This document shows positions 681-10,112 of a DNA stretch of 11,225 bases, piece after piece. A program made the position numbers and the translations under genes. Where the stretch lies: positions 1 to 11,225 of the forward strand of contig JALOPC010000022.1 of the NCBI GenBank assembly GCA_025454095.1, written 5' to 3'. The stretch is from Syntrophales bacterium. GTDB taxonomy: Bacteria > Desulfobacterota > Syntrophia > Syntrophales > UBA2192. The stretch's first letter is position 1, and each line of letters begins with the position of its first letter. The notes below the pieces were generated by a model. The model searched no databases. It was not told the DNA's origin and was given only the letters and a program-made list of their open reading frames with translations.

Positions 681-687
681 AAGGAGG
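681..687 (+). promoter_or_regulatory. Strong Shine-Dalgarno site of the putative selenoprotein
   Basis: AAGGAGG lies 7 bases before the ATG at 695. This near-perfect ribosome site supports translation of a gene that would otherwise look like a 39-codon fragment ending at UGA 812. No convincing sigma-70 promoter was found upstream: TTGACC at 644 lies only 14 bases from GATAAT at 664. Confidence 0.8.
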
Positions 688-694
688 TTCGCCC

Positions 695-1003
695 ATGAGA
701 TCAAGATCACGCCTTCTCGTGCTGGTCATGGTTGTGCTCGCCATCCTGATCGGCGCCTCGTCCGCAATCGCCAAGGAGCGTGTTGTGCAGTTAATGTTGC
801 CGGACTGCTCTTGACCTTTCACCCGTGAAAGGGTCAGTTGGACCCTCACGAACGTCGTGAAAACCGATAAGGTAGAGGTCAATGAATTCACCCACATGGC
901 GATCGTTGCCTTTGATGACGAGAAGGTAACAATCGAACAGATCGTCACGGCTCTTCAAAATGCGGGGTTCCCCCTGGGAGGCCCGCCCAAGTTCCTGAAA
1001 TAG
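695..1003 (+). CDS. Putative exported MerP/HMA-like selenoprotein (UGA at codon 40 read as Sec)
   Basis: Translated through the in-frame TGA at 812-814, this gene encodes 102 residues ending at TAG 1001. Residues 1-26 form a signal peptide: an RSRSR start, a hydrophobic core, and cleavage after S-S-A-I-A. The mature part of about 76 residues resembles periplasmic MerP and other heavy-metal-associated domains. A first strand (VVQLMLPD) leads to the site C38-S39-U40, then P-F-T and a helix, then V-E-V-N-E-F, the strand AIVAFDDEKV, the helix TIEQIVTALQNAGFP, and a short tail. MerP has the metal site CxxC followed by P-I-T; here the position of its second cysteine is Sec and the spacing is C-x-U. 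Homology continues on both sides of the TGA in one frame, and a SECIS-like hairpin follows. A likely role is metal or selenium/thiol binding in the periplasm. Alternatives are a pseudogene or a base error at one codon. It appears monocistronic, with its own terminator. Confidence 0.82.
812..846 (+). promoter_or_regulatory. Candidate bacterial SECIS element with its UGA Sec codon
   Basis: The TGA at 812-814 is followed by two overlapping hairpins. In one, bases 830-835 (AGGGTC) pair with 841-846 (GACCCT), giving a 6-bp stem with the 5-base loop AGTTG. That loop begins 21 bases after the UGA and has G as its second base. As I recall, bacterial SECIS elements have a short stem with a small apical loop roughly 16-37 bases after UGA and a G among the first two loop bases, so this fits. 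The other hairpin pairs 815-822 (CCTTTCAC) with 825-832 (GTGAAAGG). Both lie inside the coding sequence, as expected for a bacterial SECIS. Which fold forms in vivo cannot be decided from sequence. Confidence 0.68.
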
Positions 1004-1016
1004 GGATGAACGCAGA

Positions 1017-1055
1017 CGGGGCGGCGGAAGCGTTCGGGCCGCCGCCCCGGTTTTT
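1017..1055 (+). terminator. Rho-independent terminator after the putative selenoprotein gene
   Basis: Bases 1017-1027 and 1039-1049 form a perfect 11-bp GC stem around an 11-base loop, and TTTTT at 1051-1055 follows one base later. It begins 14 bases after the TAG at 1001-1003 rather than after the TGA at 812. That placement suggests the transcription unit really extends to the later stop. Confidence 0.88.
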
Positions 1056-1474: not shown

Positions 1475-3100
1475 ATGGAGTTCAATGTTCTGATCGGCGG
1501 GGAGGCCGGGCAGGGGATGTTTTCCGTGGAGCTGGAGCTCACGGAAATCCTCTCGCGGCTGGGGTACCACTTCTTCGCAACCAAGAACTACATGTCGCGC
1601 ATTCGAGGCGGCCACAACTACCACATGATCCGCGTGGCCGAGAGGCCCGTCCACGCCCTCAGCGGCAAACCGTGGGACATGGTCGTGGCCATGGACAGCG
1701 CGGAGACGGAGCGGAGGCACCGGCCGGCCCTGCGAGAGGGCGGCGCCTTCATCGGAGCCGACCGGATCGGGCAGCTCGAGGCGGAGGCGACGAAAACCTT
1801 TCAGGACGTCACGGTCACGAGCACCCTGCTCACGGGCCTGATCCTCTCTTTCATCGGCGCGGACCCCGCAGCGGCGCAGGCGGTTGCGCCCGACGAGCCG
1901 GCTCGCACGGCTCTGGCGAAAGGCAGGGAGTTTGCCGCCCGCTGGGGGCTGGAGGGCCCGAGAAGCCTGTCCCCGAAGGCAGGCGATCACTGCAAGCTCG
2001 ACGGAAACCAGGCCCTCGCCCTCGGGGCCCTCCTGGGCGGCTGCCAGTTCGTTGCCGGGTACCCCATGACGCCGGCCACGTCGATCCTGCATTATTTCAG
2101 CGCCGTGGCCCCGGAGGTTCCCGTCCATTTCGAGCAGGCCGAAGACGAGATCGCAGCGTTGAACATGGCTCTCGGGGCCTCCTTTGCGGGCCTTCGATCC
2201 ATGGCGGCCACCTCGGGCGGCGGGTTCGCCCTCATGACGGAAGCCGTCTCGCTTGCGGGCATGACGGAGACGCCGGTCGTCGTGATCGACGCCCAGAGGC
2301 CGGGACCGGCGACGGGTCTCCCCACGAGGACCGAGCAGGGAGATCTGGACTTCGTCCTGCACGCCGGCCACGGGGAGTTCCCGCGCGTGATCTTCGCGCC
2401 GGGGTCCGTCGAGGAGGCCATCTCGCTTGCCCGCAGGGCCTTCGATGTGGCCGACCGCTGGCAGATCCCCGTCTTCGTTCTGACGGATCAGTATCTCGCC
2501 GACTCCGTCCAGGTCATGGAGGGGCGGGTGCCGACGAAAATCCTGAGGCGCGAAACCCCCGTCTTCGGGGCGGGCTACCGGCGTTATGAAATCACGGACA
2601 GCGGGGTCTCGCCGCTTACCTACCCCGGGCTCTCCGAGGCCCGCGTGGAAATAGACTCCGACGAGCACACGGAAGACGGCAAGATCACGGAAGATATCGG
2701 TTTGAGGGCCCGGATGGTCGACAAGCGGCTCCGCAAATTCGAGGGGTTGCGGCAGGAGGCCGTCATGCCGACCCGCTTCGGGGATCGGCGGGCGACAACC
2801 GTCCTCGTGTCGTGGGGTTCGAACCGGCTGATCGTGAACGAGGCCGTCGAGGCCCTCAGGGCCGAAGGGATCGCCGTGTCGTCCATCCACTTCGGCCAGG
2901 TTTACCCGCTCACCCCGCCGATGGCCCGGGGCCTTGCACGCAAACGGCTGATCTGCATCGAAAACAACGCCACGGGACAGTTCGAACGATTGCTCCGGCG
3001 CGAATTGGGGCTCAAGGCCGCTCACCGGATCCTGCAGTACAACGGCGAGTGCTTTACCGTTGCGGGCCTGGTCGAACGGGTCAGAAAGATCCTGGGCTGA
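1475..3100 (+). CDS. korA: 2-oxoacid:ferredoxin oxidoreductase, fused gamma-alpha subunit (KorA-like)
   Basis: This subunit works with the beta subunit encoded downstream to oxidatively decarboxylate a 2-oxoacid to its acyl-CoA and reduce ferredoxin, or the reverse, in the cytoplasm. The 541-residue product begins with a gamma domain (about 1-165) carrying GGEAGQG at residues 8-14 and SRIRGGHNY at 41-49. The alpha/PP domain starts near 174, with GYPMTPAT at 195-202, QAEDEIAAL at 221-229 (Glu for TPP activation) and TSGGGFALMTEA at 246-257. A C-terminal transketolase-like domain begins near 440. The ATG at 1475 is chosen because GGGAGG (1464-1469) precedes it by 5 bases; a start at 1445 would add 10 residues without such a site. 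The fused order and size fit two-subunit Kor enzymes. The substrate (2-oxoglutarate or another 2-oxoacid) cannot be told from sequence alone. Confidence 0.92.
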   Translation: MEFNVLIGGEAGQGMFSVELELTEILSRLGYHFFATKNYMSRIRGGHNYHMIRVAERPVHALSGKPWDMVVAMDSAETERRHRPALREGGAFIGADRIGQLEAEATKTFQDVTVTSTLLTGLILSFIGADPAAAQAVAPDEPARTALAKGREFAARWGLEGPRSLSPKAGDHCKLDGNQALALGALLGGCQFVAGYPMTPATSILHYFSAVAPEVPVHFEQAEDEIAALNMALGASFAGLRSMAATSGGGFALMTEAVSLAGMTETPVVVIDAQRPGPATGLPTRTEQGDLDFVLHAGHGEFPRVIFAPGSVEEAISLARRAFDVADRWQIPVFVLTDQYLADSVQVMEGRVPTKILRRETPVFGAGYRRYEITDSGVSPLTYPGLSEARVEIDSDEHTEDGKITEDIGLRARMVDKRLRKFEGLRQEAVMPTRFGDRRATTVLVSWGSNRLIVNEAVEALRAEGIAVSSIHFGQVYPLTPPMARGLARKRLICIENNATGQFERLLRRELGLKAAHRILQYNGECFTVAGLVERVRKILG

Positions 3101-3124
3101 CGGAATCGGGGGGTAAGAAAATCC

Positions 3125-3946
3125 ATGAACAGACACGATATCGCCTGGTGCCCGGGATGCGGGGATTTCCCGATCCGGGCCACCCTCGAAAAAGTTCTCC
3201 GGGAGTTGCCGGTTGCGCAAAAGGACATCGTCCTCACGTCGGGGATCGGGCAGGCGGCGAAGATGCCCCACTACCTCCCCTACAGCTATTTCAACGGCCT
3301 GCACGGCCGGTCGCTGCCGCTCGCCGTGGGCATCAAGCTGGCGCGCCCCGATCTGACCGTCATTGCCGTCTCGGGAGACGGGTGCCATTACGGCGAAGGG
3401 GGGAATCACTTCCTCCACACGATCCGCCGGCGCCTGGACATCACGATCCTCGTCTGCGACAACAAGGTGTACGGCCTGACGAAGGGTCAGAGTTCCCCGA
3501 CGACCGACCTGGGGATGAAAAATGCACTCGACCCCCAGGGGAATCAAAACACCTCGTTCAGCCCCCTGGCGGTTGCCCTCGTGGCGGGGGCGCCCTTCGT
3601 GGCAAGGACCTTCGCCGGCGACCCCCAGCACATGGAGACGGTGCTCCGCGAAGCGATACTGTTCAAGGGTCCTTCCGTCGTCGACATTCTCCAGCCGTGC
3701 GTGAGCTTCAACAAGGTCAACACGTACGCCTGGTATCGCGAGAGGATTTACAGGATGGAGGAACCTCAGAAGGACCGGTATGAAGCCATCCGGTTGGCGG
3801 AAGGCTGGGGGGATCGAATCCCCACCGGGATCTTCTGGCGGGACGGGCAATTCATCTGCAGGGAAGGCAAGGAAATGTTCCGCCGCCACGTCACGGAGTC
3901 GGCCGTGGCGAGGCTTCTGAACAAGCCTTGCATCATGATGCGGTAG
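3125..3946 (+). CDS. korB: 2-oxoacid:ferredoxin oxidoreductase beta subunit (KorB-like)
   Basis: This 273-residue protein is the thiamine-diphosphate-binding beta subunit partnering the KorA-like protein, whose gene ends 24 bases upstream. WCPGCGDF at residues 8-15 supplies two cysteines (C9, C12); C87 in GDGCHYG and C192 in LQPCVSF complete the set of four that bind the single internal 4Fe-4S cluster in this family. The TPP/Mg motif begins at GDG (84-86) and ends at CDNKVYGLTKGQSSPT (111-126). The length is normal for KorB. No separate delta (8Fe) ferredoxin subunit is encoded next to it, so electrons would pass from this subunit directly to a soluble ferredoxin, as in other two-subunit enzymes. 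The ATG at 3125 follows a G-rich ribosome site near 3110-3116. The pair is clearly co-transcribed. No clear terminator follows before the convergent minus-strand genes. Confidence 0.93.
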   Translation: MNRHDIAWCPGCGDFPIRATLEKVLRELPVAQKDIVLTSGIGQAAKMPHYLPYSYFNGLHGRSLPLAVGIKLARPDLTVIAVSGDGCHYGEGGNHFLHTIRRRLDITILVCDNKVYGLTKGQSSPTTDLGMKNALDPQGNQNTSFSPLAVALVAGAPFVARTFAGDPQHMETVLREAILFKGPSVVDILQPCVSFNKVNTYAWYRERIYRMEEPQKDRYEAIRLAEGWGDRIPTGIFWRDGQFICREGKEMFRRHVTESAVARLLNKPCIMMR

Positions 3947-4018
3947 GGGGAGACAGGGAACCGGATGGAGCGATGTCAAATTTCCGGCACCGGGGCCGCT
4001 TGAAGCGACGTATTTCCG

Positions 4019-4195
4019 TCAGAGACCTCCGATAACGCGCCAGTAGTTTTCGTCCCTTTCGGGCTCGCTCTTCTTCTTTCCCTTCTTTTTCATGGAGAGA
4101 AAGATAATGAGGAACACGATGATAAAGGGCTGCTTGCCCGAGCTTTTCATCAGCCGACGGACCAGCGATTTTTCTATGCCGTCCAGAAGCCCCAC
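4019..4195 (-). CDS. Candidate small membrane protein (58 residues, GTG start)
   Basis: Read on the minus strand, a frame opens at GTG (4195-4193) and ends at TGA (4021-4019). The peptide has a short amphipathic start (LLDGIEKSLVRRLMKSSG), a hydrophobic run PFIIVFLIIFLSM (about residues 23-35), a strongly basic stretch K-K-K-G-K-K-K, and a charged tail. This looks like a single-pass small protein with a cytoplasmic basic anchor. No ATG exists in frame between the upstream TAA and the GTG. The ribosome site is weak (AGGA a few bases before the GTG). A good promoter lies about 50-80 bases upstream (4246-4276), and the unit sits just past a terminator, so it would be transcribed alone. I recognise no family. 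It could be a chance frame; a different 134-codon frame across the same bases looks less protein-like. Confidence 0.42.
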   Translation of the reverse strand: MGLLDGIEKSLVRRLMKSSGKQPFIIVFLIIFLSMKKKGKKKSEPERDENYWRVIGGL

Positions 4196-4245
4196 GAGTC
4201 CTGCCGCCGCTGCCTGTGAATTTGCGCACGCCGTGCGTGACGGTA

Positions 4246-4276
4246 TTTATATCTGATAAAATCGTGGGCTTGTAAA
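4246..4276 (-). promoter_or_regulatory. Sigma-70-like promoter, minus strand
   Basis: On the minus strand TTTACA (4276-4271, 5 of 6 matches to the -35 consensus) and TATAAA (4251-4246, 5 of 6 to the -10) are separated by 19 bases. It sits between the terminator at 4294-4340 and the candidate small gene that starts at 4195, predicting a leader of about 40-45 bases. The spacing is slightly long. Confidence 0.5.
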
Positions 4277-4293
4277 GACAAAACAAAAGGGGC

Positions 4294-4340
4294 AAAAAAA
4301 AAGATTGGGTGCCAGGTGAAGGAGGGGAAACTGGCACCCA
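4294..4340 (-). terminator. Rho-independent terminator of the minus-strand transporter gene
   Basis: Bases 4306-4315 (TGGGTGCCAG) and 4331-4340 (CTGGCACCCA) form a perfect 10-bp stem around a 15-base loop. On the minus strand it is followed three bases later by nine Ts (4302-4294). It lies about 160 bases past the stop of the minus-strand transporter gene. The hairpin on the plus strand has no T-run, so it acts mainly on the minus strand. Confidence 0.8.
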
Positions 4341-4499
4341 GAGAGAGATAAATGGGGTTTCAAGTTATCGGATTCGCTTTATATGATATGCAACAAGCGT
4401 GACAAAGAGAGCCGCAAATCAAAATATTTCCAGGAAATGATGGGGGATATATATTGATCGCCGAATCGAACGGGGCGGACGGGCGTTATCCAAAACCTT
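4341..4499 (-). other. AT-rich 3' untranslated stretch
   Basis: Between the transporter stop and its terminator lies about 160 bases of lower-GC DNA with no credible gene on either strand. The only short plus-strand frame (from ATG 4352) has 16 codons and no ribosome site. Confidence 0.5.
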
Positions 4500-4994
4500 T
4501 CAGGCGGAGACAGCAGGGGATGTTCGCCGGGTCATGATAAACGGCAAAACCATAAGGCCCGAAATATATTTGATAATTGCCTGACCAAGAATGGCGGGCC
4601 AGACGGGCCCGAAGGCAAGCAGGACAAAGACGAGGGAATCCACCGGGCAGGAGACGAGGTTGGACCAGATGACCCGGGAGGCAAAAGAACGTTTCAAAAC
4701 GCGGAAAAAGAGCCAGTCCAGGCTTTCGGACACGAAAAAGGCGGCCATCGAGGCGATCGCGATCTCGAGATTGAAAAGCAGCGTGATCAGCGAGGCCGCG
4801 ATCATCCAGGCCCAGGTGGCCCAGTCTCCCCAGTAACGCTGGACAAAGTCGCGTAATGAAAAGGTTAGTCCGATCCAGACGACCCCGGCCGGAAAGGAGA
4901 GGCCGGCAACGGTCACGATCCCGAACCAGATAACGAAAGCATTGCCCAGAAGGATGCTCAGGAGGTAGAGCAACCCCCATATCCATTTTCTCAT
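4500..4994 (-). CDS. VUT/YhhQ-family transporter, probably for a queuosine precursor
   Basis: This 164-residue inner-membrane protein matches the COG1738 (YhhQ/VUT) family, whose studied members import queuosine precursors (preQ0/preQ1) for tRNA modification. It has about five hydrophobic segments, near residues 5-24, 28-45, 59-80, 82-98 and 120-150. The family-like stretch S-L-R-D-F-V-Q-R-Y-W-G (46-56), the acidic helix A-A-F-F-V-S-E-S-L-D (84-93), and S-N-L-V-S-C-P-V-D-S (111-120) are all present. It is shorter than E. coli YhhQ (about 220 residues) and resembles the compact forms of the family. The ATG at 4994 follows AGGACAGG at about 8 bases. The gene is divergent from the NUDIX fusion gene at 5095. 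Two alternative hairpins overlap its leader. The substrate is inferred from family membership only; no queuosine synthesis genes lie in the window. Confidence 0.75.
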   Translation of the reverse strand: MRKWIWGLLYLLSILLGNAFVIWFGIVTVAGLSFPAGVVWIGLTFSLRDFVQRYWGDWATWAWMIAASLITLLFNLEIAIASMAAFFVSESLDWLFFRVLKRSFASRVIWSNLVSCPVDSLVFVLLAFGPVWPAILGQAIIKYISGLMVLPFIMTRRTSPAVSA

Positions 4995-5094: not shown

Positions 5095-6345
5095 GTGGAT
5101 CGCCGGGATTCGACCAGGATGACTTCAACCGGAGCTGCCCCCAAGAGAACCGCGGTGACCGCCGCGGTGATGGAAAAAGACGAAAGGATCCTCATTGCCC
5201 GTCGCAAGCGGGGGGATCGCATGGCGGACAAATGGGAATTCCCGGGCGGAAAAATCGAGAAAGGAGAAACTCCCGAGACCTGTCTGCGGAGAGAAATGCG
5301 GGAGGAATTCGGCATCGACGTCGCCGTGGGTTCCTTCGTCGGCCGCAGCCTCCATGCCTACCCCCATGGGGAAATCGATCTTCTGGCCTATCGGGTGACC
5401 CATCTCTCGGGGGAGTTTCACCTCCATGACCACGAAGAGATTCTGTGGGTCAGGCCCGCCGACCTGAAATCCTACGACTTTTCCGCTGCCGACGTCCCGA
5501 TCGCGTCGATTCTCATGAAGGAAGCAGGCGCAGCGCCGGCCGGGCATTTCCTCCAACTCGGCGACCTGCGCGTTCACCTGCTGGATCGGGGCTCCGGCAG
5601 GCCTCTGCTCCTTCTCCACGGCACCGGGGACAACGCCCGCACATGGGATCTGCTGGCGCCCAGCCTGGCGGAATCCTTTCGGGTGCTGGCCATGGACCAG
5701 CGCGGGCACGGCGAAAGCGACTGGGCCGTGCCGCCGGCTTACCGGTGCGAGGATTATCTGCGCGATCTCACCGCTCTGATCGACACCCTCGGCCTGGAGG
5801 ACATGATCCTGCTGGGGCACTCCATGGGGGCGCTGCATGCAAGCCTCTACACGGCCTGCAACCCCGGCAGGGTTGCGGCCCTCATCCATGTGGACATCGA
5901 ACCCTTCCCGCCGGACTGGAATCGCAAGTACCTGCTCGGGTTGTACAAGAACCTCCCGGACGACTATGCCTCCCCGGAGGAGTACGCTGAGGAACTCGCC
6001 CGGAACGCCCCGTACGCCCGGCGGGAGCACCTGCGCGATCTGGCGTCGAGGGCCCTCGCCCGGAAAGGGGACCGATGGCATCGGACCTACGACCGGGAGA
6101 TCCTCTCCCGGTTCGACCACTACGACCTCAGGGGCCGCCTGGCCGAAATCCGCTGTCCGACCCTCGTGATCCGCGGCACCGAGAGCCGCGTCCTCGGGCG
6201 CGAAGCGGCGGAGCGGATGGTCCGGGCCCTGCCGGCGGGCGAGCTGGCCGAGATCCCGAAGGCGACGCACCCGGCCCATCTGGACAACCCCGGGGCGTTC
6301 CGGGAGGCGGTCTTGGGATTCTTGAAAAAGCACGGGCTCCTCTGA
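5095..6345 (+). CDS. NUDIX hydrolase fused to alpha/beta hydrolase
   Basis: This 416-residue protein joins two enzymes. The NUDIX domain (about 18-145) has a perfect box at 52-74 (G-x5-E-x7-RE-x-x-EE-x-G-I) and MutT-like sequence before it (ADKWEFPGG), suggesting hydrolysis of a nucleoside triphosphate or other X-linked diphosphate. After a short linker comes an alpha/beta hydrolase (about 152-416): oxyanion-hole segment LLHGTGDN (173-180), DQRGHGES (201-208), nucleophile elbow GHSMG with S243, and a catalytic histidine probably at H392 in THPAHLDNP. The usual acid site reads RGTES (360-364) rather than the familiar Gly-x-x-Asp, so E363 or another acid must serve. The GTG at 5095 is preferred because GGAGG (5084-5088) lies 6 bases before it; the ATG at 5119 would drop 8 residues. 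It is divergent from the transporter gene. The substrates of both domains are unknown. Confidence 0.88.
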   Translation: MDRRDSTRMTSTGAAPKRTAVTAAVMEKDERILIARRKRGDRMADKWEFPGGKIEKGETPETCLRREMREEFGIDVAVGSFVGRSLHAYPHGEIDLLAYRVTHLSGEFHLHDHEEILWVRPADLKSYDFSAADVPIASILMKEAGAAPAGHFLQLGDLRVHLLDRGSGRPLLLLHGTGDNARTWDLLAPSLAESFRVLAMDQRGHGESDWAVPPAYRCEDYLRDLTALIDTLGLEDMILLGHSMGALHASLYTACNPGRVAALIHVDIEPFPPDWNRKYLLGLYKNLPDDYASPEEYAEELARNAPYARREHLRDLASRALARKGDRWHRTYDREILSRFDHYDLRGRLAEIRCPTLVIRGTESRVLGREAAERMVRALPAGELAEIPKATHPAHLDNPGAFREAVLGFLKKHGLL

Positions 6346-6608: not shown

Positions 6609-7181
6609 ATGGACGTATTCGAGGCCATCATCGGACGCAGAAGCTGCAGGAAGTTCCAGCCCGAGGCGGTGAGCGACGCGGACATCGACAAGATCCTCGA
6701 GGCCGGCAACTGGGCCCCGTCGCCCGCCAACCAGCAGCCCTGGGAATTTGTCGTTATCACCAGCCCCGGCATCAAGGAGCGGATCTTCACCGAGAGCGAG
6801 ATCTGCAAGAAGACTCTCTTCGAGCGCAGCGGCTGGAAATGGCTGGAGAAATTCCCCATCGACTTCGTGAAGGAAGCCCCCGTCATCATCGCGGTCGTGG
6901 GGGACCCGAAGAAGAGCGGCGCCGACCTGTTCCTCGACGAAGGAACCGGACGGGGATACCTGGAGGGCTGCTCGGCGGCCGTCCAGAACATGATGCTCGC
7001 AGCCCATGCCCTGGGGCTGGGAAGCCTGTGGTTCTCCCTGTACGAGTCCGCTGCGGTGCGGCCGATCCTCGGGATCGACCCCGGCAAGGACCCCGTCGCC
7101 CTGCTCTGCGTCGGAAAACCGGTCTCCACGGCAGCGTCGAAGCGAAAGGACTTTCGTGAAAAAACGTCGTACCTCCGCTAG
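6609..7181 (+). CDS. Nitroreductase family protein (FMN-dependent)
   Basis: This 190-residue protein has the nitroreductase fold that uses FMN and NAD(P)H to reduce nitro compounds, quinones or related substrates in the cytoplasm. The family signature starts with RRSCRKF at residues 10-16, which contacts the FMN phosphate. Then come PSPANQQPWEF (37-47), an A-A-V-Q-N-M-M-L-A-A-H-A-L-G-L-G helix (123-138), and the closing strand ALLCVGKP (164-171). The middle region W-K-W-L-E-K-F-P-I-D-F (76-86) is typical of the deltaproteobacterial type. The start at 6609 is chosen over an in-frame ATG at 6582 because AAGGAGGG (6597-6604) lies just before 6609, while 6582 has no ribosome site. Its last 26 bases overlap the photolyase gene, so they are probably co-translated. 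Its substrate is unknown. Confidence 0.9.
   Translation: MDVFEAIIGRRSCRKFQPEAVSDADIDKILEAGNWAPSPANQQPWEFVVITSPGIKERIFTESEICKKTLFERSGWKWLEKFPIDFVKEAPVIIAVVGDPKKSGADLFLDEGTGRGYLEGCSAAVQNMMLAAHALGLGSLWFSLYESAAVRPILGIDPGKDPVALLCVGKPVSTAASKRKDFREKTSYLR
7146..7150 (+). promoter_or_regulatory. Shine-Dalgarno site fixing the GTG start of the FeS photolyase
   Basis: AAGGA at 7146-7150 lies 5 bases before the GTG at 7156, inside the end of the nitroreductase gene. It decides in favour of this start over an upstream frame opening at 7006, which lies deep in the nitroreductase coding region. Confidence 0.7.
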
Positions 7182-8748
7182 CGGAGCGAAGCTCGAGCCG
7201 GTCCGTAACCTGGTCCTTGTCCTGGGCGACCAGCTCGACCGGCACTCGTCGGCCTTCGACGGCTTCGATGCACGGCTCGACGCCGTCTGGATGGCCGAGG
7301 CGGCGGCCGAGGCCGGGCACGTGCCGTCCCACAAGGCCCGGATCGCCCTTTTCCTCTCCGCCATGCGCCACTTCCGTGAGGCCCTCGAAGCCGAAGGGGC
7401 GCACGTTCACTACCGCCGTCTCGAGGACCCGGAAAACCGCGGCACCCTGGCGCTGGAACTCGAGGAGGCCGCCCGGCGCCTCGAGCCCCGGAAGCTCGTA
7501 ATCGTCGAGCCGGGCGAGTGGCGGGTGCGCGAGGACATCAGGACCGCGGCGAAAAAGGCGGGTGCCGATCTCGAGATCCGTCAGGACCGGCACTTCCTCG
7601 CCTCCCAGGACGACTTCGACCGTTTCGCCCGGGGAAGAAAGCAGCTCCGGATGGAGTTCTTCTACCGGGAGATGCGCCGCAGGACGGGCCTCCTGATGAA
7701 GGGGGGCGAGCCCGAGGGCGGCCGCTGGAATTACGACGCCGACAACCGGGGGGCCTTCCCGAAGGAAGGGCCGGGCAAGGTCCCCGCGCCCGTTTCCTTC
7801 CCGCCCGATTCGACCACCCGCGAGGTCATCGAACTGGTGGAACACCGTTTTGCCGGCCACCCGGGAAGCCTCCGGCACTTCGACTGGCCCGTCACCCCGG
7901 GACAGGCGGAAGCGGCCCTGCAGGACTTCGTCGCAAACCGTCTCCGGCTCTTCGGGCCCTTCCAGGACGCGCTCTGGACCGGCCAGCCCTGGCTGTACCA
8001 CTCGCGGCTCTCCTCGTCGATGAACCTGAAACTGCTCGACCCGCGGGAGGCGGTGCGGGCCGCCGCCGAAGCCTACGGGAAGCGGGCTGCGGCGCTTGCC
8101 TGCACCGAGGGCTTCATCCGGCAGGTGATCGGCTGGAGGGAGTATGCCCGGGGCGTCTACTGGCGCCACATGCCCGGCTACATGGGGATGAACGCCCTGG
8201 AGGCATCGCTTCCCCTGCCGAGGTTCTACTGGACGGCGGACACGGAGATGAGCTGCCTGCGGGAGGTGATCGGACAGACCCTGGAGTACGGCTACGCCCA
8301 CCACATCCAGCGCCTCATGGTGACGGGGCTCTTCGCCCTCTTGCTGGGGGTTGCGCCCCGGGAGGTCCATCGCTGGTACCTTGCCGTCTACGTCGACGCC
8401 GTCGAGTGGGTGGAACTCCCGAACACGCTGGGCATGTCCCAGTTCGCCGACGGCGGCATCATGGCCTCCAAGCCCTACGCCGCCACGGGGAAATACATCG
8501 ACCGGATGAGCAACTACTGCCGGGCGTGCCGCTACGACCCCGCCCGGACGGACGGGGAGTCGCCCTGCCCCTTCTCCGTCCTGTACTGGGATTTTCTTCT
8601 GAGGAACCGGGCGCGTCTCGCCCGCAACCCCCGGATGGGCCTTCAACGTAGAAACGCCGACCGCCTCGCGGCGGCCGAGGCAAAGGCCCTGCGGCGCAGG
8701 GCGGACGCGATCCGGCACGAAATCGACTTCCAGGAGTACCGCCCATGA
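7156..8748 (+). CDS. FeS-type bacterial photolyase/cryptochrome, probable (6-4) photolyase
   Basis: This 530-residue protein belongs to the iron-sulfur photolyase group (FeS-BCP/CryPro, PF04244 DPRP plus FAD domain), of which Agrobacterium PhrB is the known (6-4) DNA photolyase. Four cysteines, C367, C455, C458 and C471, are spaced 88, 3 and 13 apart, as in PhrB (C350, C438, C441, C454), and bind the 4Fe-4S cluster. YAHHIQRLMVTG places the paired histidines (H382, H383) used in (6-4) repair. The antenna domain starts at NLVLVLGDQL, and the FAD-binding end has WVELPNTLGMSQFADGG followed by ASKPYAATGKYI. Family members use FAD and a lumazine-type antenna. The gene overlaps the nitroreductase gene by 26 bases and its TGA overlaps the next ATG (ATGA at 8745-8748), so the genes are coupled. 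The repair activity is inferred from the family. Confidence 0.93.
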   Translation: MKKRRTSASGAKLEPVRNLVLVLGDQLDRHSSAFDGFDARLDAVWMAEAAAEAGHVPSHKARIALFLSAMRHFREALEAEGAHVHYRRLEDPENRGTLALELEEAARRLEPRKLVIVEPGEWRVREDIRTAAKKAGADLEIRQDRHFLASQDDFDRFARGRKQLRMEFFYREMRRRTGLLMKGGEPEGGRWNYDADNRGAFPKEGPGKVPAPVSFPPDSTTREVIELVEHRFAGHPGSLRHFDWPVTPGQAEAALQDFVANRLRLFGPFQDALWTGQPWLYHSRLSSSMNLKLLDPREAVRAAAEAYGKRAAALACTEGFIRQVIGWREYARGVYWRHMPGYMGMNALEASLPLPRFYWTADTEMSCLREVIGQTLEYGYAHHIQRLMVTGLFALLLGVAPREVHRWYLAVYVDAVEWVELPNTLGMSQFADGGIMASKPYAATGKYIDRMSNYCRACRYDPARTDGESPCPFSVLYWDFLLRNRARLARNPRMGLQRRNADRLAAAEAKALRRRADAIRHEIDFQEYRP

Positions 8749-10112
8749 TCCACCCCTCGCGCATCCAGCCCCTGAACAGCCGGAGCATCCAGGACGGCCG
8801 GTACGTCCTGTACTGGATGCAGGCCTCTCAGCGGGTCGAGTGCAACCACGCCCTCGAGCATGCCGTCCGCGAGGCCGGCCTCCTCCATCTGCCCGTCGTC
8901 GTTGTTTTCGGCCTCACCGACCGGTTCCCCGAGGCCAATCTGAGGCACTACGCCTTCCTGCTCGAGGGGCTCGAGGAGGTCCGCAGCGGTTTGCGGAAGA
9001 GGGGGATCCGTTTCGTGCTCCGGCACCGATCGCCCGAGCGGGCCGCCGTGGAGCTGGCCGGCGAGGCGGCCCTCGTCGTGGCCGACCGCGGGTACCTGCG
9101 CATCCAGCGGCAGTGGCGCAGCCACGTTGCGGCCAACGCCCCCTGCGCCGTCGTGCAGGTGGAATCCGATGTGGTCGTGCCCGCGGAGACGGCCTCGCCG
9201 AAGGAGGAGTATACGGCGGGCACCTTCAGGCCCAAGCTGCACAGGGTCCTCAAGGGGTACCTGGCCCCTCTCGAGGCACGGCCGGTCCGTAAGGATTCCC
9301 TTTCCCTTCGCCTCGACGTCGATGCCGCGGAGGATTTCGCGGCGTTGGCCGGGACCATGAAGATCGATCGCTCGGTGGCCCCCGTCGAAGGGCTCGCAGG
9401 GGGCACGGCGAGCGCCAACCGACTGCTGGAGGCTTTCATCGCCGGGAAGCTCCGCCACTACGGAGACCGGCGCAACGACCCGGGCCTCGACTTCGCGTCG
9501 GGCCTCAGCCCCTACCTGCACTTCGGGCAGATCTCCCCCCTGGCCGTCGCCCTGCGCGTCTCGGCGGAAAAGGCCGTCCCCGCCGCAGCGCGCGAGGCGT
9601 TCCTGGAGGAACTCATCGTGCGGCGCGAGCTGGGCATGAACTTCGCCTTCTACAACGAGCGTTACGACGAGTACGCAAGCCTCCCCGACTGGGCGAGAAA
9701 GACTCTGGCCGAGCACGGGAAGGACCGCCGGGAGTTCCTCTACGACGAGGGGCAGTGGGAACGAGCCGAGACCCACGACCCCTACTGGAATGCCGCGCAG
9801 CGGGAGATGGTTCTCACGGGCAGGATGCACAACTACATGCGCATGTACTGGGGCAAGAAGCTCCTCGAGTGGAGCCGGACCCCGGAAGAGGCCTTCCGCA
9901 CGGCCCTGCGTCTCAACAACCGTTACGAACTCGACGGGCGCGACCCCAACAGCTTCGCCGGGGTTGCCTGGTGCTTCGGCAAGCACGACCGGGCCTGGCC
10001 GGGGAGGAAGGTCTTCGGCAAGATCCGCTACATGAACGACGCGGGGCTCCGGCGCAAGTTCGACATGGACACCTACCTCGCGAAGGTGGCCGCTCTGGGC
10101 AAAGGGCGTTGA
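8745..10112 (+). CDS. Class II cyclobutane pyrimidine dimer (CPD) DNA photolyase
   Basis: This 455-residue protein is a class II CPD photolyase, which uses light and FADH- to split thymine dimers. The N-terminal antenna domain starts at GRYVLYWMQASQR (18-30). The FAD domain shows the class II signatures in order: SPYLHFGQIS (255-264), RRELGMNF (293-300), THDPYWNAAQREM (343-355), GRMHNYMRMYWGKK (359-372), and NNRYELDGRDPN with FAGVAWCFGKHDRAW (391-418), followed by KIRYMNDAGLRRKFD. Length and motifs are complete. The ATG at 8745 overlaps the stop of the FeS photolyase gene by 4 bases and is preceded by AGGAG at 8732-8736, so translation is coupled. Together with the upstream enzyme it covers both major UV photoproducts. 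No LexA-type box was apparent upstream of the operon. Confidence 0.96.
   Translation: MIHPSRIQPLNSRSIQDGRYVLYWMQASQRVECNHALEHAVREAGLLHLPVVVVFGLTDRFPEANLRHYAFLLEGLEEVRSGLRKRGIRFVLRHRSPERAAVELAGEAALVVADRGYLRIQRQWRSHVAANAPCAVVQVESDVVVPAETASPKEEYTAGTFRPKLHRVLKGYLAPLEARPVRKDSLSLRLDVDAAEDFAALAGTMKIDRSVAPVEGLAGGTASANRLLEAFIAGKLRHYGDRRNDPGLDFASGLSPYLHFGQISPLAVALRVSAEKAVPAAAREAFLEELIVRRELGMNFAFYNERYDEYASLPDWARKTLAEHGKDRREFLYDEGQWERAETHDPYWNAAQREMVLTGRMHNYMRMYWGKKLLEWSRTPEEAFRTALRLNNRYELDGRDPNSFAGVAWCFGKHDRAWPGRKVFGKIRYMNDAGLRRKFDMDTYLAKVAALGKGR

Follow-up and report, generated by a model that had tools for sequence, protein, structure and literature searches.

A conserved in-frame UGA in Syntrophales very probably encodes selenocysteine in a small, plausibly exported protein of the HMA fold

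The window (the whole 11,225-nt stretch of DNA that was analysed) carries at 695-1003 a short gene which standard annotation ends at an internal UGA. Upstream of it lies a 4Fe-4S protein gene (48-545, itself ending in TGA), and downstream an 80-residue open reading frame (1122-1364) followed by a 2-oxoacid:ferredoxin oxidoreductase-like pair. The 80-residue frame is conserved just 3′ of the selenoprotein gene in five loci of the genus, and no Pfam family matched it over cut-off. Elsewhere in the window, 5095-6345 encodes a single protein with NUDIX and alpha/beta hydrolase domains, and a photolyase-related gene (7006-8748, PF04244) overlaps a DNA photolyase gene (8745-10112, PF00875) head to tail; these overlapping photolyase-type genes (7006-10112) sit in the genome of an order of anaerobes. 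The features of the gene under study are:

681-687, plus strand: ribosome-binding site AAGGAGG, 7 nt 5′ of the ATG; read directly.
695-1003, plus strand: predicted selenoprotein gene, ATG at 695, U at residue 40, TAG at 1001-1003, 102 residues; read directly.
695-772, plus strand: signal-peptide-like N-terminus of 26 residues (...SSAIA/KE), recognised by eye.
806-808, plus strand: codon of Cys38, first residue of the C-x-U site, in a column that is Cys in at least 90% of 48 A2 sequences.
812-814, plus strand: UGA codon assigned to Sec40, from direct reading and conservation in relatives.
830-846, plus strand: SECIS-like hairpin AGGGTC-AGTTG-GACCCT, 6-bp stem, loop G at 837, 22 nt after the UGA; supported by covariation.
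1018-1055, plus strand: terminator-like hairpin and T run (GGGGCGGCGG/CCGCCGCCCC, by eye; a scan gives 1034-1050).

Direct reading shows that the frame from 695 to 1003 is broken by the UGA at 812-814 alone and then runs on to the TAG, the protein around the site being ...LMLPDC-S-U(40)-PFTRERVSWTL... Hence the original prediction of a strong ribosome site ahead of a single frame interrupted only by this TGA agrees with the sequence. It had also proposed a signal peptide and a terminator. The N-terminus is indeed signal-peptide-like by eye, and residues 3-21 form a low-confidence helix in the AlphaFold model; on these sequence features export of the 102-residue product is plausible, and no firmer than that. 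A terminator-like site does follow the TAG (scan match 1034-1050), although shuffled sequence yields 0.8 such sites on average. A sequence scan found no consensus promoter for the gene.

In a first search of 60 genomes, that of the window included, we found 37 family matches in 29 genomes, 34 of them with exactly one in-frame TGA. All seven genomes of the genus (this one and six at 65-82% identity) keep the UGA. Given this conservation, comparison of the sequences argues that the TGA at 812 is neither a chance occurrence nor an error, and the TGA, whose change to TGC or TGT on resequencing would have undone the proposal, is conserved between species. The frame also continues past the TGA in the homologues rather than ending there. 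Among the seven genus orthologues (21 pairs) the median dN/dS is 0.20 after the TGA as against 0.45 before it, where the sequence is largely the signal-peptide-like stretch, and we judge from these ratios that the downstream frame is under purifying selection.

The family was then followed more widely. A profile of 48 members was scanned against 149 genomes of the order, of which 107 matched at an E-value of 1e-6. At 66 bits or more there were 108 matches in 96 genomes, 103 with one TGA and five with none, such that 95 of the 149 sampled Syntrophales genomes hold a TGA-bearing match (hand counts). A DNA pattern in which the Cys and hairpin letters were fixed and the TGA left free gave 72 matches in a collection of 84,980 species; in 67 a TGA follows the Cys at a distance of two or three codons, and these read as members of the family, and the other five (L106, L109, L128, L135 and L174) were rejected as chance matches. 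Most came from Smithella, Syntrophus or Syntrophaceae, Smithella belonging to the order Syntrophales, and some from Desulfobacterales such as Desulfonema magnum. As judged by these searches the family is mainly one of Syntrophales, and is widespread.

We assembled 103 distinct rows, comprising 98 with UGA, four with Cys and one with neither; L207-L209 were added for having no TGA, and the sample, with its ratio of 98 in 103, is therefore biased. The set excludes L090, two fragments (L210 and L211), matches that are true MerP/CopZ/ATPase proteins, and the majority of members from the 149-genome scan, whose sequences were unread. By site there are 76 C-x-x-U, 17 C-x-U, two C-x-C, two C-x-x-C and one with neither, together with five rows in which U is not preceded by a Cys at either distance (L036, L087, L088, L091 and L094). 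The Sec column of the homologues is thus occupied by U or Cys, as the original prediction expected. Cys stands at the site in L037, L060, L207 and L208; the C-x-x-C rows L207 and L208 nest inside a C-x-x-U group (SH-aLRT 96) and, for that reason, read as cases of Sec replaced by Cys.

Several rows stand apart. L209 (G452) has lost both Cys and Sec and is flanked by the usual YggS/Maf-like genes; by eye, a SelB-like gene is also close. L087, L088 and L091 (PGVVU) form a sister group in which U is kept and neither the second nor the third residue before it is Cys, as do L094 (SGGU) and the public proteins P0005-P0016, among which P0007 and P0008 have a Cys after the site instead. In L090 (G331), a C-x-U member, the frame breaks 3′ of the hairpin through a frameshift or a sequencing error.

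The hairpin was examined in 43 members with UGA, all placed in one fixed register except that L094 was shifted by hand one codon later. Of these, 39 (36 distinct) accommodate a stem spanning the R-V/I-S/G-x-x-L codons; L083, L087, L088 and L091 misfit it and were dropped before pairs were counted, but by eye could form shifted hairpins. In the 39 aligned members standard pairs make up 99.1% of pair cells, five of the six stem pairs have changed on both sides, and 24 cells are changed on both sides compared with a shuffled mean of 6.5. Sliding the partner strand lowers pairing to 32-45%. No variation is seen in the loop G (window 837, A1 column 10), and the 15 nt AGGGTCAGTTGGACC are identical in 7/7 genus genomes, with a mean dS 3′ of the hairpin of about 1.2. 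Furthermore, the hairpin uses uncommon codons (AGG, 35 of 238 Arg; AGT, 1 of 111 Ser, in six window genes), and the UGA-less L037, L060, L207, L208 and L209 form only three or four of the six pairs in the same register.

Folded alone, 805-860 prefers another hairpin, and 826-850 and 812-852 give the conserved one. Single-sequence folding energies are unremarkable against shuffles (z of -0.56, -1.74 and -1.60), and hence the case for the hairpin rests on the covariation. The 67 DNA-pattern matches were not counted as SECIS evidence because the pattern contained stem letters, and Rfam at its gathering score gave no match within the window. On the covariation we take the hairpin at 830-846 to be real, and the predicted SECIS-spaced hairpin after the UGA therefore has a definite counterpart, with its loop G 22 nt from the UGA.

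When the rows are aligned on the Cys, U falls either at Cys+2 (C-x-U) or at Cys+3 (C-x-x-U), and the hairpin lies on the same codons in both. Counted from the UGA, loop G comes after 22 nt in the window and after 19 nt where the site is C-x-x-U. The C-x-U rows come from several genera and include the window protein and thioredoxin-like fusions. A tree of 75 columns resolves little: the C-x-U label takes five changes on it, of which the well-supported branches force only one, a result compatible with one origin or with several. The C-x-U spacing put forward originally is present as D-C-S-U, but from the alignment it appears to be the trait of a 17-row subgroup within a larger, mostly C-x-x-U family. 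Two groups sharing one SECIS position provide a natural test of how a UGA moves relative to its SECIS.

The genome possesses the means to read such a codon. Profile searches placed SelA, SelB and SelD above their cut-offs, the selD gene itself containing a single in-frame TGA, and tRNA-Sec (selC, anticodon TCA) is also encoded, so the machinery, whose absence would have told against the proposal, is complete in these four genes. A test of co-occurrence between gene and machinery had no discrimination, since 133 of the 149 order genomes already have selA. We envisage that SelB and tRNA-Sec would decode the UGA at 812, aided by the hairpin at 830-846, and that the product would then be secreted through its signal peptide.

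A profile search and an AlphaFold model (pLDDT 87.5) both give the window protein the predicted HMA/MerP fold, as originally suggested, and the beta-alpha-beta-beta-alpha-beta arrangement is found in the model. By sequence and by fold, the closest solved structures are MerP and copper chaperones or ATPase domains, the second fold comparison being confined to Foldseek's own list of matches. Individual family models are reached less readily. PF00403 scores 15.6 bits, below the Pfam gathering score of 24.8, which some relatives pass (L062, 33.9; L037, 29.6), and its CxxC metal-binding motif is absent from the window protein, where the site is D-C-S-U. The MerP model TIGR02052 gives 45.5 bits, below the curated cut-off of 92.55, as does every other member scored in bits, and it is matched at E 0.01 or better by 48/48 A2 sequences (best 2.3e-15). 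None of the NCBIfam models came above cut-off for the window protein. In the AlphaFold model Sec40 would immediately precede helix 1, roughly at the place of the second metal-binding cysteine of MerP, with Cys38 next to it.

Collectively, the open frame, the conserved UGA, the covarying hairpin, the machinery and the signature of selection, all read from sequence, lead us to regard 695-1003 with high confidence as the gene of an exported selenoprotein of the HMA fold. This confidence attaches to the identity of the protein and not to its role.

Domain fusions offer one approach to the role. A second protein with a UGA, about 246 aa long and thioredoxin-like in its C-terminal part, is encoded in five of the seven genus genomes; in the genome of the window this HMA fusion is L067 (G000, contig 354, 3452-4189, minus strand). 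The fusion genes of this type in the genus have a small lipoprotein-like neighbour in 5/5 cases and a lipocalin-like one in 4/5 (by eye). The thioredoxin-like assignment is weak: Thioredoxin_9 scores 25.5, 25.2 and 24.8 bits against a cut-off of 25, being near it in L062 and L067, Pfam Thioredoxin has no match at E 0.001 in L072, the active site reads WCxxS or WSxxS, and the fusion model is poor (mean pLDDT 59.6). A long C-terminal part occurs in six further members (L127, L136, L155, L159, L163 and L175), and among the five long fusions scanned PKD-type domains were found in all and a rhodanese domain in four. L175, on the Desulfonema magnum 4be13 chromosome (1777-4845, minus strand), is a UGA-bearing HMA protein joined to PKD-type and rhodanese domains, and L136, L155 and L159 are built likewise, the rhodanese of L159 seeming by eye to be without its Cys.

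Gene neighbourhoods were compared across 36 loci, with names assigned by eye. Upstream and on the opposite strand lies a YggS-like gene in 12 and a Maf-like gene in 10; downstream, 10 loci have a convergent mannose-1-phosphate guanylyltransferase-like gene. An operon partner was sought in this conserved neighbourhood and rejected, as it is mostly housekeeping synteny across genera (YggS, Maf, ManC and RlmI, by eye); the common neighbours represent shared synteny and not an operon. When 900 nt upstream of each of 85 members were inspected, a same-strand open reading frame ending within 200 nt was found in 14, some doubtful; most are non-redox genes or doubtful frames, and three are redox genes, in one genome each.

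Directly upstream of the family gene, L050 (8370-8933, minus strand; G005, of the same genus) has a UGA-bearing exported AhpC/TSA protein with the site YTPTU, and L069 (7163-7948, plus strand; G032) a UGA-bearing DsbC-like protein with UPYC. In G022 a pyridine nucleotide-disulfide oxidoreductase (FAD/NAD) lies just upstream.

Taken together, the fusions and some of the neighbours lean towards redox or sulfur chemistry. We propose, as a tentative reading of these sequences with not quite an even chance of being right, that Sec40 and Cys38 would form a periplasmic selenol-thiol pair exchanging electrons or sulfur with partner thiols. We favour such exchange over a metallochaperone role because the partners seen are thiol or sulfur proteins, and because Cys forms are rare and the lone-U forms are without a second ligand of this kind. 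Each of these clues is weak by itself.

The main alternative is a Sec-containing MerP-like metallochaperone, whose C-x-U site would be a periplasmic ligand for Hg(II) or Cu(I), serving to protect the cell or to pass the metal on. Selenols bind soft metals tightly, the Sec sits at the metal site of a fold whose nearest solved structures are MerP and copper chaperones or ATPase domains, the HMA relatives of known function bind metals, and every A2 sequence matches the MerP model as described above. The genomic context speaks otherwise. The window's own genome (86% complete) lacks MerT and lacks MerA over cut-off, and among eight genomes of the taxonomic family both are found only in G004, there about 167 kb from its copy of the selenoprotein gene; a mercury operon was rejected on this account. 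In addition, the protein scores well under the MerP cut-off, five UGA rows have no Cys two or three residues before U, and the known fusions are to rhodanese or thioredoxin-like domains and not to transporters. As inferred from sequence, then, the metallochaperone is a serious but somewhat less likely alternative. Of the earlier idea that Sec takes the place of the second MerP cysteine in a metal or redox role, the placement is supported by the model whereas mercury finds no support in the context within the window's own genome. Redox and soft-metal roles may also both be true.

Returning to selenol-thiol exchange, a broader reading, which we offer as possible and somewhat speculative, is that a metallochaperone fold was turned in anaerobes into secreted selenoredox domains acting on periplasmic thiols, persulfides or peroxides. 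If so, the domain stands alone in Syntrophales and serves as a module on rhodanese/PKD and thioredoxin-like proteins; it is nearly always a Sec form and rarely a Cys form and, with the SECIS remaining in place, its Sec codon has shifted against the fold by one position. A small protein with a single Sec poses the question of what advantage a metal-chaperone fold draws from selenium in place of sulfur, and the Cys and lone-U variants are ready-made comparisons for the Sec form.

The way in which public databases present the family bears on how the UGA is read. Of about 5.8 billion public proteins, two matched the window protein and 39 the family profile. Among 27 of these 39 (the other 12 being of 55-72 aa), the Sec position is W in 15, 11 are fragments starting beyond the site, one (P0021) seems to span it with neither Cys nor Sec, and none has Cys there. 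The 11 late starts, together with the standard annotation, are what would be expected were the UGA a real stop, giving a 39-residue peptide and a separate or dead downstream frame; yet the purifying selection beyond the UGA, the fold that aligns across it, the covarying hairpin and the Cys replacements at the site render this very improbable. Reading of the UGA as tryptophan, in keeping with the W of the 15 copies, is scarcely credible given that TGA serves as the stop codon in four of the six genes checked in the window, as well as in those that end at 545 and 1364, that tRNA-Sec (TCA), SelA, SelB and SelD are present, that hairpin and Cys replacements favour Sec, and that W would be expected wherever a short contig is called with code 4. 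The 15 W-bearing entries (P0002-P0016) are metagenome proteins, and their Trp is as expected if their contigs were called in that way.

Decoding as Sec therefore stays our reading, and the window protein would be hidden from gene catalogues because one codon looks like a stop. In the public proteins examined, this UGA family of Syntrophales is truncated or wrongly read, and the rarity of Cys homologues could hide it from methods based on Cys/TGA pairing. A literature search, mostly of papers outside subscription, found no recognisable description of the family. PMC13188914 compiles 119 families and lists a 'Putative mercuric transport protein' (PF02411, C/SxxU) and NF041115 (UxxU); the accessible part of that paper shows no stand-alone exported C-x-U or C-x-x-U HMA/MerP family. 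Likewise, the 19 selenoproteins of Syntrophus aciditrophicus in the accessible part of PMC1794560 include none of this kind.

Among known systems MerP (TIGR02052; 1osd, 1afi) resembles the window protein in size, in its signal-peptide-like start, in the HMA fold and in having a residue pair at the start of helix 1. CxxC is the MerP motif, seen also in outgroup loci, whereas the window protein has C-x-U, and no merT or merA adjoins its gene. The original prediction remarked that heavy-metal-domain proteins with Sec had been noted before, and this was right in part, since three such entries exist. NF041115, the UxxU metal-binding (seleno)protein, is likewise an HMA-like selenoprotein, but it has two Sec (UxxU; PMC13188914, Table 1, as far as accessible) and a 74-position profile against which the window protein scores 21.1 bits for a cut-off of 95. 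NF045683 (MerT_CopZ_Se, a MerT/CopZ fusion-like heavy metal transport selenoprotein) is also Sec-associated with a similar C-terminal region, but is a 235-position fusion profile on which the window protein scores 20.2 bits for a cut-off of 375. Finally, Table 2 of PMC2398784 (2008) gives a 'Mercuric transport protein MerP' with two selenoprotein sequences and no Cys homologues; this entry shares its name and its Sec with the window family, the accessible part of the paper gives no motif for it, and it may be the same family or a sister family.
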